Source: Bacteroidaceae bacterium (GTDB taxonomy: Bacteria > Bacteroidota > Bacteroidia > Bacteroidales > Barnesiellaceae_A). Taken from it: a stretch of 49,590 nucleotides of DNA. The stretch covers positions 1 through 49,590 of the forward strand of contig JAFZFQ010000006.1 in the NCBI GenBank assembly GCA_017555825.1, given 5' to 3'. The notes under the pieces are model-generated. The model was not told the origin of the DNA. It worked only from the letters and a program-made list of their open reading frames with translations, and ran no database searches. Shown here piece by piece: positions 20,258 through 28,599 of the stretch; the stretch's first letter is position 1, and every line of letters begins with the position of its first letter. A program made the position numbers and the translations under genes.

Positions 20258-21284
20258 TTATTTTTGATCGTGTTGCTCTAAGAAGAAGCGTTTTTGTTGT
20301 TCTATTTCTTTACGCAATTCTTCTTCAGTAGGCATATACGCCATATATTTTGTTGCAAATAGTTGTTCGTTATCGTGCAGAACAGAATACTTAGCAATCG
20401 TTTTGTCTGTATCAGTACAAAGAAGCACACCTATAGTTGGATTGTCATCTTCTCCTTTTACCAAATCGTCGTACATTCGCACATACATATCAAGTTGTCC
20501 CACATCAGCATGAGTTAATGCGTGTGTTTTCAATTCAAAGATTACAAATCTTTTCATTCGGTAGTTGTAAAAGACAAGGTCGGCATAAAAATCACCTAAA
20601 TCTGTACGTATGTGTTTCTGACGTTCAACGAATGCAAAACCACGTCCAAGCTCCATAATAAATTGTTGTAAGTTGTCTATGAGAGCTTGTTCAAGTTCAG
20701 TTTCAGAATAATTGCTATATCTATTAAAGCCAAGGAATTCAGCAACTAATGGATTCTTGATATATTTTTCTGGAGAGAATTCTTCAACAATTGTTGGCAC
20801 TGGAAGTGGCAAATGTTTTCTTTGAGACGCCAATCTGCGGCCATAATATTGGGTTGTTATATTTCTTTCTAAAGTTCTAACACTCCACATTTCTCTCGAA
20901 GATTCTTTCATATACCATAATCTCGCGTCTTCATCTTCTACATGGATAAGTAAACGAATATGTGACCAAGATAGATTTTGCACAAGTGTGTGCAAAATCT
21001 CATTATTAGGAAACGCCAAATAGAATTTACGATAATAGGCAAGATTTCGTTGCCCATATCCTCCTCCATAGCTAAGCTTTAACTCTTCTGCCAAAGCAGG
21101 TATAATTCTTTTCCCATATTGAGCACGAGATGCTCCTGCTTGTTCTTCTTCTACGATACGTTTACCAATATGTAAAAATAGCAGAATGTACTACAGCAGA
21201 AGATGCAGTAGCTATTCCATTATCAATTATCTCTCGTATGTCATTGACAAACTGTCGGGTTATTACAATATCGTTGCTCTTCAT
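20258..21284 (-). pseudogene. Frameshifted DUF1016/YhcG-type PD-(D/E)XK nuclease
   Basis: The 3-prime part encodes the family C-terminus, with an apparently intact nuclease core: DFYADLVFYNYRMKRFVIFELKT carries the Asp and the E-x-K pair. The N-terminus starts at an ATG at 21284 (MKSNDIVITRQF), runs 40 codons through AIFTYW and hits TAA at 21162-21164. One frame over, IGKRIVEEEQAGASRAQYGKR continues exactly as the family does, so a single frameshift near 21165-21175 splits the gene. The site reads ACATATTGGTAAACG; relatives have a residue between YW and IGKR, so loss of 8 bases between two ATATTGG copies would explain it. The gene is AT-richer than its neighbours and stands alone beside a tRNA, which suggests acquisition. 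DUF1016 proteins often accompany restriction systems; none is here. A sequencing error cannot be excluded. Confidence 0.8.
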
Positions 21285-24650: not shown

Positions 24651-24695
24651 CAAGTCCCCCCGATAAGCCGGCTGCTTATCGGGGGGACTTGTGTA
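24651..24695. terminator. Bidirectional terminator, 18-bp stem
   Basis: A perfect 18-bp stem (24651-24668 with 24674-24691) with a 5-base loop and a G/C-rich core, between convergent genes ending at 24640 and 24718. Confidence 0.88.
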
Positions 24696-24717: not shown

Positions 24718-27700
24718 CTATTTTACAATCAACTTGGCATTGTGCACTGTAGTGGGCGTAGCCACAATTACTATATAGTGACCTTGTGCATAACCTGCCA
24801 CATCTATAGTCATACGGTTGCTTGCGACACCCCCATATTGCGCTATACAGTTGCCCACTATGTCATATACCGACACATGCTCTATCTCGTTGGCAACTTC
24901 TACAATAGCCACATCGGCAGTAGGATTGGGATAAAGTTTTACTTGAGCAGTGGTCGCTTGTGTATCTTCAATATTACTAAATATTGAATCAAAGCCAAAG
25001 GGTTGTGTGCATGTTTCGCCATACTCGTTTACAATCAAAGCTCGTACATATCGACCTTGAAAGCCGGTAAAGTCAAACTCTTTACCTACAGCCACTACAG
25101 TACTCTTGCGAGTAGAAGGCGCACCATTGATGTCGGTGGCCGATATCCAATACACCTCGGTAGCATCGGTAGTAATTTTAATAACATTACCCTCCTCATC
25201 TATGCGGTCGATACGAGGTGCTTTCGCCTCGCCCGAGCCTGTATATTCGTACGAGAAGTAGTGTGCACCAGAGTACATGGCTTTTTTGAGTTCTTCAATA
25301 GTAAGTGCAGGCATCAACATGTGGTTGTAGTTGCGGAACAACTGCTCGTCGTTGTGCACATCGTCGCACGAATAACCCCACACCGGATAGGGCATTGTTA
25401 TTTCGAGTATTTGATCCCACAGCACACGGTCGTTGGCTCGGCGATTGCCTTGGTTGTAGACCTCAAGACCTATCAAGCTTCTGTACGTCATAAAGTTCTC
25501 GGCATGCCACTCGGGAGAGTTCTTCTCGCCAGGTGTATAGCTCTTGTCCAAGCTCCAATATTGACCCGGGTGATTGATGAGTTGCATACCTCCCAATTTC
25601 TCGGTATAGGCATACGACTCACGCAATGTACCGAACTCCATACCCTGACGACCTGTAAAGAAGTCGTTGTGGTGGTTAAACTCGCTACCACCCACCTCAT
25701 TCCAGCTATTGGTATAGCTCTTACTCAACTCATTGCCCGGGATGGCAAGCATATCCAACTCTTGCGGATAACAGCTCGTTGCTGCGGGATTATAAAGGTT
25801 GAACATCTCCCACGGATAGGGATTGGCGTCGTGGTCGGTAAGAGCCAAAATCTTATAGCCGGCATTGTAATACTTCTCGACCGACACATCTACACGGTGA
25901 TTGGCATCGAACGAAGTGGTAGTGTGGGTGTGGAAGTTGGCTTTATAGTGATTTATGGCATCCCAATCGACATCATCATAAGCATTTAGAGCGATAAATT
26001 TATTCTCGTCGGAACCAGTAAGCACCTTCACGGCAATTGTTTTATAATCCTTAACTTCGTTATCACCACGCTTCAAGTTGAGCGAGAGGTGGTAAATACC
26101 GGCCTTGACATTGGGCAACTGCATTTGCCATTTACCTTGACCTACGGTGACAAGCGACATTGCGCTCTTTGAGCCATAGTTATGGTTTACATCGACCGAT
26201 ATTTCACAACCTTGCAAGTCGTTTATTTCCAAATACACCGCAACATCGGTACCTACATTACATACCGCAGGCACTGCTATAAACTTATCGACAACAACCT
26301 CGCCTACCACATCGCCCCATTGTGTCTCAGTAACGGTTACACGATTGGTCAAGTAATCATACAACACATCGGCAGCGATACAGTTGTCCGACACACTATA
26401 GGTAGCAGTAATCGCACCCATATCCGAGCCACTATTTACACTACCGTAGTGAATAGAGAAGCTCTTGTCGACACCTGTAAACTCGGCCGAAGCCTTGACC
26501 GTATAGTTGCTCACGATACTCATTGTGCTGGTTTCGCTTGCAGTTACCAAGCGGAAGGCTGCAGAGTTGGCGGCGACATCAACAACACTCTCGTCTGAGA
26601 AGATTGCAATACGATGCCATGAAGTCGAACTCTTCTTTGAACTGAAACCAATATTGCCATTCTCGGCCTTGAGTGGTGTTCCGGTACCATCGGCACTACG
26701 CGTTACGTTCCAATAATATTGAGTCTTTACATCGGCAGGTATCTCGGTAACAGCAACTTGTGCCCTCACCTCGTTACCCGAAGATATGTAGTTGGTGACA
26801 TAGGTAAAATGTGTATTGGCATCATACTTCAAGTCTTGGCTATCTATTGCCGAAACGACAGAGTATTGTGAGGTTGATATATCTATTACATCATCATTGC
26901 CACCATTATCGCCACCGCCGTTATTCTCTACAATAGTCACCCGATTGGTACGAAAATTATAGACAATATCGGCACTTGTACAGTCGCTCGACACACTGTA
27001 GCTACCTGTGATAGCACCCATGTCCGAGCCACTATTTACACTACCGTAGTGTATCTTGAAACTCTTGTCGTCGGCAAAGGTCATTGTAGCCGACACGCAG
27101 TAGTCGGCGCCGGGCGTCATCTTCACCTCAGCAGTAGAGGTTTTAACGCGAAAGGCAGCCGAATTGGCAGCGACATCTTTTACAGTCTCGTCGGCAAAAA
27201 CAGCCACACGATGCCACGATACTGTAGACTTCTTAGAGCTGAAACCGATATTGCCATTCTCCGATTTAAGAAGCGCACCGGTACCATCGGCACTGCGACT
27301 CACATTCCAATAATATTTGGTTTTTACATCGACAGGTATCTCGGTCACTGTCACTTGAGCCTCTACACTACCACCATCGGCTACAAAATCGGCTACATAT
27401 ACAAATGGCGATTGTGCATCGAAAGTAAGGCTCTGACTATCAATAGCCGAAACGATAGAGTATTGAGCATTGGCAAGTTCGCTTGTAGCCTTAGCAGCTA
27501 ACACAGGAGCATCGGCACTCAACAAATAGGGATATACAACCTTCAACGCACTACCCCATGCCTCATCGCTATGGCGTGCACCGGCAAGGGTTGAGAAGCG
27601 TACATCTGCATTGCTACGTGAGGCTACGGCTTCACTAAGCAACTCAACATCGGCTTGCATGGCTTCGGGTTCGGCACTACCTACCGTGAAATAGAAACGT

Positions 27701-28599
27701 TGCGACGCAGCCTCAGCGGCAGTTGTAGCATACGACAATATTTCGTTCTTGTTATACCACACTGTAGGCGAAATAGAGGCACATTGACCAAACAAATCGG
27801 GGCGTTTCAGAGCAGCATATACACAGAACAAGCCACCTTTATCGGCACCTACAATGGAGGTATTGCTTGCGCCTGTAAGCGTGCGATAGGTCGAATTAAT
27901 GTAGGGCATCAATTCCTTTTCTATACCATTTATAAAGGCATCAGAGGCTCCGGTTCCGGCAAAATCGGCATAAGGATAAGGAATATTCTCGGCCACAAAA
28001 CCATACATCGACACAAAGATACAAGGCACACCACCTTCTACCTCACGCACCATACCGGGCACATTCCAAGAGACATCGCCCATGTGGTCGTCGCCACGGT
28101 CGGTATCGGAACCCGCATTATCGTAACGAGCTTGTACACCGGTGAGGTAAACAACAGGATATGAAAGGCCCGACGTAGCATAGTCGGTGGGCAACAAAAC
28201 CTTCACAACACGCTTATATCCGTTTACCATTAAGGTAGTTTCCTGGATGTCGGGGTTATACAACTTAGCCCAACTTGCCACTTCGTCGAGCGAAGTAGCC
28301 ACGGTGCGGTCGCTCAACTCCTCGCCCGAAGCACCCTTCTCGACGTACGCCCAATCGCGACCACATAGGTACTTGAAGCCATTGGCAACATCGGCTGTAG
28401 TAATATTGTCGACAGTAAGGGTAAATGTATTATTGCCCGAAGGCTCCATTTCGAGAGCATTGGTAGCATCCCAATTATTGAACGATGCCGCAATATAACA
28501 TGCACGAGTACCATCGGGAACCTTCACATTGAAGGTAACTGCCGCCATAGCCAATACTCCTATCAGAGACAAAAGCATTGATAACAAAAGTTTTTTCAT
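24718..28599 (-). CDS. Exported esterase-like/PHP-domain fusion with T9SS C-terminal sorting domain
   Basis: A 1293-residue multidomain protein. In order: signal peptide (1-19); small carbohydrate-binding-like beta domain (20-85, CYIAASFNNWDATN); a Fes/esterase-D-type alpha/beta hydrolase (about 105-370); two similar repeats of about 185 residues (about 372-555 and 571-760); an Ig-like domain (about 765-870); a PHP phosphoesterase domain (about 880-1190) with H890-T-H892, LTDHDAN, an IPGNE segment, INHPGQ and CDDVHN, i.e. a full set of metal ligands; and a type A T9SS sorting domain (about 1215-1293, LYPNPTADVAIVEV). In the esterase part the GxSxGG nucleophile motif reads GADKGG, with D253 where Ser is expected, while the His (H343, ARHSDEAW) is kept. 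So the hydrolase module is probably inactive and the PHP module active. Substrate unknown; surface delivery by T9SS is likely. Confidence 0.87.
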   Translation of the reverse strand: MKKLLLSMLLSLIGVLAMAAVTFNVKVPDGTRACYIAASFNNWDATNALEMEPSGNNTFTLTVDNITTADVANGFKYLCGRDWAYVEKGASGEELSDRTVATSLDEVASWAKLYNPDIQETTLMVNGYKRVVKVLLPTDYATSGLSYPVVYLTGVQARYDNAGSDTDRGDDHMGDVSWNVPGMVREVEGGVPCIFVSMYGFVAENIPYPYADFAGTGASDAFINGIEKELMPYINSTYRTLTGASNTSIVGADKGGLFCVYAALKRPDLFGQCASISPTVWYNKNEILSYATTAAEAASQRFYFTVGSAEPEAMQADVELLSEAVASRSNADVRFSTLAGARHSDEAWGSALKVVYPYLLSADAPVLAAKATSELANAQYSIVSAIDSQSLTFDAQSPFVYVADFVADGGSVEAQVTVTEIPVDVKTKYYWNVSRSADGTGALLKSENGNIGFSSKKSTVSWHRVAVFADETVKDVAANSAAFRVKTSTAEVKMTPGADYCVSATMTFADDKSFKIHYGSVNSGSDMGAITGSYSVSSDCTSADIVYNFRTNRVTIVENNGGGDNGGNDDVIDISTSQYSVVSAIDSQDLKYDANTHFTYVTNYISSGNEVRAQVAVTEIPADVKTQYYWNVTRSADGTGTPLKAENGNIGFSSKKSSTSWHRIAIFSDESVVDVAANSAAFRLVTASETSTMSIVSNYTVKASAEFTGVDKSFSIHYGSVNSGSDMGAITATYSVSDNCIAADVLYDYLTNRVTVTETQWGDVVGEVVVDKFIAVPAVCNVGTDVAVYLEINDLQGCEISVDVNHNYGSKSAMSLVTVGQGKWQMQLPNVKAGIYHLSLNLKRGDNEVKDYKTIAVKVLTGSDENKFIALNAYDDVDWDAINHYKANFHTHTTTSFDANHRVDVSVEKYYNAGYKILALTDHDANPYPWEMFNLYNPAATSCYPQELDMLAIPGNELSKSYTNSWNEVGGSEFNHHNDFFTGRQGMEFGTLRESYAYTEKLGGMQLINHPGQYWSLDKSYTPGEKNSPEWHAENFMTYRSLIGLEVYNQGNRRANDRVLWDQILEITMPYPVWGYSCDDVHNDEQLFRNYNHMLMPALTIEELKKAMYSGAHYFSYEYTGSGEAKAPRIDRIDEEGNVIKITTDATEVYWISATDINGAPSTRKSTVVAVGKEFDFTGFQGRYVRALIVNEYGETCTQPFGFDSIFSNIEDTQATTAQVKLYPNPTADVAIVEVANEIEHVSVYDIVGNCIAQYGGVASNRMTIDVAGYAQGHYIVIVATPTTVHNAKLIVK
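26320..26885 (-). repeat. Intragenic repeat copy B
   Basis: Second copy of a protein module of about 185 residues (from ISTSQYSVVSAIDSQDL to NRVTVTE). It shares long identical DNA stretches with copy A about 600 bases away, for example around 26420-26450. It encodes sandwich-type beta strands between the esterase-like and Ig-like domains. Confidence 0.85.
26935..27485 (-). repeat. Intragenic repeat copy A
   Basis: First copy of the module (from AQYSIVSAIDSQSL to NRVTIVE), matching copy B across its length. Shared peptide blocks are NGNIGFSSKKS and FKIHYGSVNSGSDMGAIT (one difference in the latter). Confidence 0.85.

Follow-up and report, generated by a model that had tools for sequence, protein, structure and literature searches.

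A predicted exported PHP-esterase fusion protein of Bacteroidales with aspartate at the esterase nucleophile position

Introduction

What becomes of an esterase fold when aspartate takes the place of its nucleophilic serine, while the base and the acid of the triad stay where they were? This question is raised by a gene on the minus strand of a 49,590-nucleotide stretch of DNA (hereafter, the window) from a gut bacterium of the Bacteroidaceae (assembly GCA_017555825.1, contig JAFZFQ010000006.1). The encoded protein joins a CE1-type alpha/beta-hydrolase module, in which Asp253 occupies the nucleophile position, to a PHP domain with a full metal site, and it bears a sorting domain of the type IX secretion system (T9SS). 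Below, we argue that the Ser-to-Asp change is old, occurred once and is tied to the fusion with PHP, and that the PHP domain is probably the main enzyme; the altered CE1 module would now serve for binding, or would still be an enzyme in modified form. The features on which the argument turns are as follows.

24718..28599, minus strand: whole gene, a single open frame with an ATG start, 1293 amino acids
27502..28257, minus strand: CE1-type alpha/beta-hydrolase module, residues 115-366 (Pfam PF00756 at residues 129-341, 60.3 bits against a cut-off of 22; predicted model, pLDDT 91.7; structural alignment Z 22-26)
27841..27843, minus strand: codon of Asp253 (GAT), nucleophile position, from alignment and a codon check
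27670..27672, minus strand: Glu310, acid position, from alignment
27571..27573, minus strand: His343, base position, from alignment
25255..26013, minus strand: PHP domain, residues 863-1115, containing the nine positions taken as metal ligands, from profile, fold and alignment

An aspartate that is fixed in the fused proteins

Residues 251-256 read GADKGG where GxSxGG would be expected. Full-length orthologues from three genomes of the same genus (65-67% identity) and from one of another family (41%) carry GGDMGG, GADLGG, GADMGG and GADLGG. A PHP-profile search of named genomes returned 62 loci, 22 of which (L040-L060 and L099) hold the same kind of fusion, whole or truncated, as called from PHP similarity and from the frame holding each locus. 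Four of these (L042, L043, L048 and L050) match genomes already sampled and were counted once; together with the window this makes 23 fused proteins. The nucleophile position can be read in 22 of them, since L052 is cut before the esterase, while L045, apparently split in two frames, is still readable there. Asp253 is present in all 22, down to about 33% identity, and so is His343, so that both residues singled out in an earlier note on this DNA, the substituted nucleophile and the retained histidine, prove to be general features of the fusion. In the 21 fused rows aligned over the module, position 310 is Glu in 13 and Asp in 8, and the residue two places after the Asp is always small (Gly, Ala or Ser). 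The codon at 253 is GAT or GAC in every readable member. Because at least two base changes separate a Ser codon from GAY, and because the assemblies are independent, a read error is ruled out in practice.

The relatives that have no PHP domain tell the other half of the story. A search of the order found matches at E <= 1e-25 in 47 of 393 genomes, though in some of these no more than the CBM48-like repeat was matched. The searches for relatives and of the order together yielded, among the loci fetched, 32 distinct PHP-free relatives over the module, counted after removal of three near-duplicates. All of them have Ser at position 253 and His at position 343, and 31 have Glu at 310. With the threshold set at E <= 1e-40, a search of the phylum found matches in 27 of 395 genomes, the window included, and the 19 further PHP-free loci fetched from it all have the Ser-Glu-His set. 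Serine is thus found in 51 of the 51 PHP-free relatives examined, and neither an Asp-type module without PHP nor a Ser-type module with PHP was found among the examined loci. The alignment of homologues that the earlier note had called for therefore refutes a local mutation: an intact Ser is met only in relatives without PHP.

In a tree of the esterase module built with column 253 omitted (row L030 being flagged as a long branch), the Asp proteins form one clade with an SH-aLRT of 99, in agreement with one change, and the fused rows likewise form one clade in the PHP tree (SH-aLRT 100). The simplest history that would fit both trees is one fusion and one Ser-to-Asp change. Other substitutions mark the same clade: S252A, E177S, F159Y and E345D are specific to the Asp proteins, Arg158 (20 of 21) and Ser177 (21 of 21) were gained alongside the Asp, and the serine-type motif YMHDGQNLFD was lost together with Glu177. 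These paired losses and gains indicate that the pocket has been remodelled. W178, E204, G217, H343 and W348 stand at >=95% in both clades.

The module did not decay after these changes. In the five close pairs for which dN/dS could be computed, the remaining pairs being saturated, it is 0.09-0.11 in the esterase module, a rough figure since dS is 1.1-2.5. As far as codon comparisons go, this shows purifying selection on the CE1 module ever since the Ser-to-Asp change. With Asp in every readable fused protein, a single old origin and a dN/dS of about 0.1, a recent local mutation or a decaying pseudo-module devoid of function is most improbable; nothing but the absent serine speaks for it.

The PHP domain as the probable main enzyme

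The PHP assignment depends on a profile match to the solved PHP structure 3e38 (E 3e-14) and on the predicted model (pLDDT 92.9 for the PHP part), whose fold aligns with 3e38 at Z 20.5 and with TM0559 at Z 19.5, since the Pfam PHP model itself scores below its cut-off. Nine positions, H890, H892, D898, H923, E957, H976, H1010, D1080 and H1082, are what we take to be the metal ligands, from PHP structures combined with the alignment. All 23 fused proteins have all nine, and each single position is retained in 31 to 34 of the 34 non-fused proteins. The full ligand set proposed in the earlier note therefore stands except for one residue: D922, the first Asp of its 'DHD' motif, is Glu in 3 of the 23 fused proteins and so is not an invariant ligand.

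How do the modules of the fusion compare in their conservation? Among 20 fused proteins (190 pairs; L045, L052 and L060 were dropped), mean pairwise identity is 0.71 for PHP, 0.60 for the domain that follows it, 0.57 for the CBM48-like domain, 0.44 for repeat R2, 0.41 for the esterase, 0.35 for the linker and 0.28 for the T9SS tail. Because PHP is the most conserved module and has a full metal site, it is probably the main enzyme, and the proposal that an exported PHP phosphoesterase is the active part of the protein gains support to that extent from these comparisons.

Outside the fusion, the PHP relatives found are lipoproteins or signal-peptide proteins (judged by eye), one protein with S-layer homology (SLH) domains and one with a dockerin. 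Exported PHP proteins therefore seem to be a wider group, and the premise that PHP domains are usually cytoplasmic, from which the earlier note started, is weaker than claimed: the nearest relatives found are mostly exported too. When the 395 genomes of the class were searched with the PHP module, the window was the only match.

Two of these relatives deserve mention in their own right. One from Herbivorax (L095:9872-11170) carries a type I dockerin and is a possible cellulosomal PHP enzyme, and the protein with SLH domains (L072:2939-7015) is a possible S-layer PHP enzyme. In addition, two genes for secreted PHP proteins lie some 36 kb from each other on a contig of Membranihabitans maritimus (L087 and L085); one adjoins an Exo_endo_phos gene and the other a SusD gene.

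Binding part or changed enzyme?

The explanation that we favour, with about even confidence, is that the protein is an exported metal-dependent phosphoesterase in which PHP does the chemistry and the CBM48-CE1 unit serves in substrate recognition. Such a protein would be a single-gene, multidomain hydrolase exported by the T9SS. The PHP metal site, where HisK and similar relatives bind three metals, would activate water to cleave a phosphate ester carried by a polymer or headgroup outside the cell. Serine esterase activity would have been given up by the CBM48-CE1 unit, whose main task would be to recognise or position the substrate; Asp253, Glu/Asp310 and His343 would make up a polar ligand site in the former pocket. 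Several observations weigh against this explanation. Only 17 of 252 positions in the esterase module are invariant across 21 proteins, with Asp253 and His343 among them, and a working triad would look alike; an acid position that stays Glu or Asp is also expected of a working triad. The PF02811 match to the window protein is partial (residues 889-925, 37 residues) and, at 19.4 bits, below the cut-off of 26.4. Finally, carbamates rather than phosphates are the substrates of PHP relatives of the CehA/McbA type.

Perhaps, then, the CE1 module is itself a working hydrolase that uses Asp as its nucleophile, an arrangement evolved independently inside the CE1/PF00756 family. Asp253 would attack the substrate, and His343, backed by Glu/Asp310, would activate the water that releases the covalent intermediate, by analogy with the haloalkane dehalogenases and epoxide hydrolases, which are Asp-nucleophile alpha/beta hydrolases. 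In a profile alignment D253, E310 and H343 are matched with Ser542, Glu606 and His638 of DmCE1B_ct, its crystallographic triad according to PMC8040265. The unbroken retention of the Asp and the His, the restriction of position 310 to two acids, the small residue that a nucleophile elbow requires and the pocket residues W178, E204 and G217, shared with the serine clade and kept, all speak for this scheme. On the other hand, the oxyanion-side HDGQN motif of the serine clade is lost, 22 residue positions and a further 6 gap columns drop from >=95% in the serine clade to below 70% in the Asp clade with few newly fixed, and the esterase module evolves faster than PHP. Moreover, a literature search found neither an Asp-nucleophile CE1 enzyme nor a PHP-esterase fusion in the titles or abstract openings listed. 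We regard such an active module as somewhat unlikely. A bolder version, in which the CE1 fold was converted once to an Asp-nucleophile hydrolase (with dehalogenase, epoxide-hydrolase or new ester chemistry) and joined to an extracellular PHP phosphoesterase, is unlikely. The earlier note suggested that the hydrolase fold may serve as a binding scaffold. A dead scaffold is one reading among others, because the His and the acid kept with the Asp, under purifying selection, also fit an Asp-nucleophile hydrolase.

The chemistry of the PHP domain can be questioned in the same way. It might act on a bond other than a phosphate ester (a carbamate or carboxyl ester, as in CehA/McbA) or be a nuclease. 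Of 8 non-fused relatives scanned, 7 have the CehA/McbA model NF038032 as their top NCBIfam match, at up to 77 bits, and the fold matches of the PHP model include RNase AM and endonuclease Q. However, all eight relatives (39-77 bits) miss the 80-bit cut-off of NF038032, and the window protein has no match to it at E <= 1 in NCBIfam. The genes around the non-fused PHP loci also bear on this question. Ten genes from six loci were scanned, out of 121 listed, and the picture is mixed; two of the six loci have phosphatase-type neighbours, a purple acid phosphatase (L078) and an Exo_endo_phos protein (L087), which favour phosphate chemistry in a weak and anecdotal way. A non-phosphate or nucleolytic activity seems unlikely.

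Domain layout and predicted export

The remaining parts of the gene, and a hairpin behind it, are listed here.

28540..28599, minus strand: signal peptide, residues 1-20, assigned by eye from the sequence
28258..28539, minus strand: CBM48-like/E-set domain, residues 21-114, from a Foldseek match of the predicted model
26935..27468, minus strand: repeat R1, residues 378-555, which shares 64% identity with R2 across 179 columns
26329..26886, minus strand: repeat R2, residues 572-757, which pairs with R1
26014..26307, minus strand: linker domain, residues 765-862, Ig-like by eye only and with no accepted Pfam match
25000..25254, minus strand: beta-rich domain after PHP, residues 1116-1200, from secondary structure of the predicted model
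24724..24936, minus strand: T9SS type A sorting domain, residues 1222-1292 (PF18962, TIGR04183)
24651..24691, minus strand: very strong, terminator-like hairpin with an 18-pair stem, directly 3' of the stop and between two converging genes

Export by the T9SS is predicted from these parts. The tail scores 39.6 bits against a cut-off of 27 for PF18962 (Por_Secre_tail; Pfam) and 33.9 bits against 23 for TIGR04183 (T9SS sorting domain; NCBIfam). In the same genome (2.09 Mb in 70 contigs) there are 42 Por_Secre_tail matches, 28 of them above cut-off, and the machinery is present, with SprA at 2775 bits and GldM at 502 bits. The signal peptide and T9SS sorting domain claimed for the protein were thus borne out, the former by eye, and the protein would sit on the cell surface or leave the cell.

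R1, R2 and the CBM48-like domain have no Pfam match, and the genome holds only these two copies of the R1/R2 repeat. The CBM48-like domain (residues 20-115 in this comparison) occurs as tandem multi-copy arrays in other proteins of the genus, including two in the same genome (G000:C47:267-1782 and G000:C50:4226-5068) and others at L019, L020 and L024-L026. The terminator reading of the hairpin follows from its stem length and not from site count, the region having 4 terminator-like sites against a shuffle mean of 3.5.

Gene neighbourhood

The window gene stands alone between an acyltransferase gene on the opposite strand and a divergent dnaG, and no convincing operon partner was found within the window. 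Elsewhere, in 7 of the 22 fused loci (L044, L045, L046, L047, L049, L054 and L060) the gene upstream runs in the same direction and is related to a DUF6377 protein, as seen by Pfam in two and by BLAST in the other five. Genes of this kind (L044:5888-7543, L046:6179-7756 and five similar) have TPR repeats, an apparent membrane span and, by eye, an apparent helix-turn-helix; perhaps they encode a dedicated membrane-bound regulator. A groEL-type gene lies upstream in four other loci (L055, L057, L059 and L099; BLAST, two by Pfam). Eight neighbours of the window gene were sought in the 22 fused loci and one was found, a nuclease homologue (28% identical) in L053. Because the upstream genes vary and the window neighbours are nearly all missing from these loci, no conserved partner explains the substrate. 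As a separate matter, 20258-21094 (minus strand) of the window encodes a YhcG/DUF1016-type PDDEXK nuclease whose N-terminal domain is matched only from profile position 52, and which may be cut at its start.

Significance

The interest of this locus lies in a clean, old and fusion-linked Ser-to-Asp change. It amounts to a natural experiment in which the nucleophile was exchanged while base and acid stayed in place and for which the many serine relatives without PHP serve as controls, and it makes testable the question of whether such a change leads to new chemistry or to a binding site. If the module does use its Asp as a nucleophile, the combination with PHP would be a two-reaction surface enzyme of gut Bacteroidales; the named ones that carry the fusion come mostly from herbivores. 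More broadly, the locus points to exported PHP enzymes of gut and sediment bacteria, bearing T9SS, lipoprotein, SLH or dockerin signals, with a substrate yet to be assigned.

Comparison with known systems

The predicted models are confident, except for the loop at 159-165, which adjoins the pocket and has a pLDDT under 50. The best Foldseek matches for residues 21-366 are the CBM48-CE1 structures 7b6b, 7b5v and 6rzn, while VIA-align places the esterase model at Z 22-26 to Fes, BES, EstB and CBM48-CE1, and at >=20 to all of the 50 listed chains with an alpha/beta-hydrolase fold. The closest comparison is therefore with the CBM48-CE1 feruloyl and acetylxylan esterases of Bacteroidetes (DmCE1B, 7b5v/7b6b; wtsFae1A/B, 6rzo/6rzn/8bbp; BACINT_01033; BACINT_01039), which have the same order of CBM48-like domain and CE1, the His and acid positions and a signal peptide. 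Unlike the window protein, they have a Ser nucleophile; in the window protein the oxyanion-side motif is replaced as well, PHP and a T9SS tail are fused on, and identity is 14-18% in the Foldseek alignments. A passage in PMC8040265 reports no binding of the DmCE1 CBM48 domains to the polysaccharides named there, and for this reason we do not label the CBM48-like part a sugar binder. The siderophore esterases Fes, IroE, BES and EstB, also of PF00756, are among the highest structural scores (Fes 25.6, BES 25.4, EstB 24.2). The EstB mutants in PDB titles (S148A, E211Q and H267N) fit a Ser-Glu-His triad, and the chains of this group have a Ser nucleophile and no PHP, whereas the window protein has Asp and PHP.

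The haloalkane dehalogenases and epoxide hydrolases (family names as in PMC7034887) would, judged from sequence, share with the window protein an Asp at the nucleophile elbow together with a His and an acid. They are nevertheless other alpha/beta-hydrolase families, and none is among the 50 matches listed per structure search. On the PHP side, the phosphoesterase BVU_3505 (3e38) and TM0559 (2anu) share the fold and the metal-ligand pattern, and 3e38 likewise has a second domain; they differ in having no esterase, their identity to the window PHP is 14-19%, and their PDB titles name no substrate.

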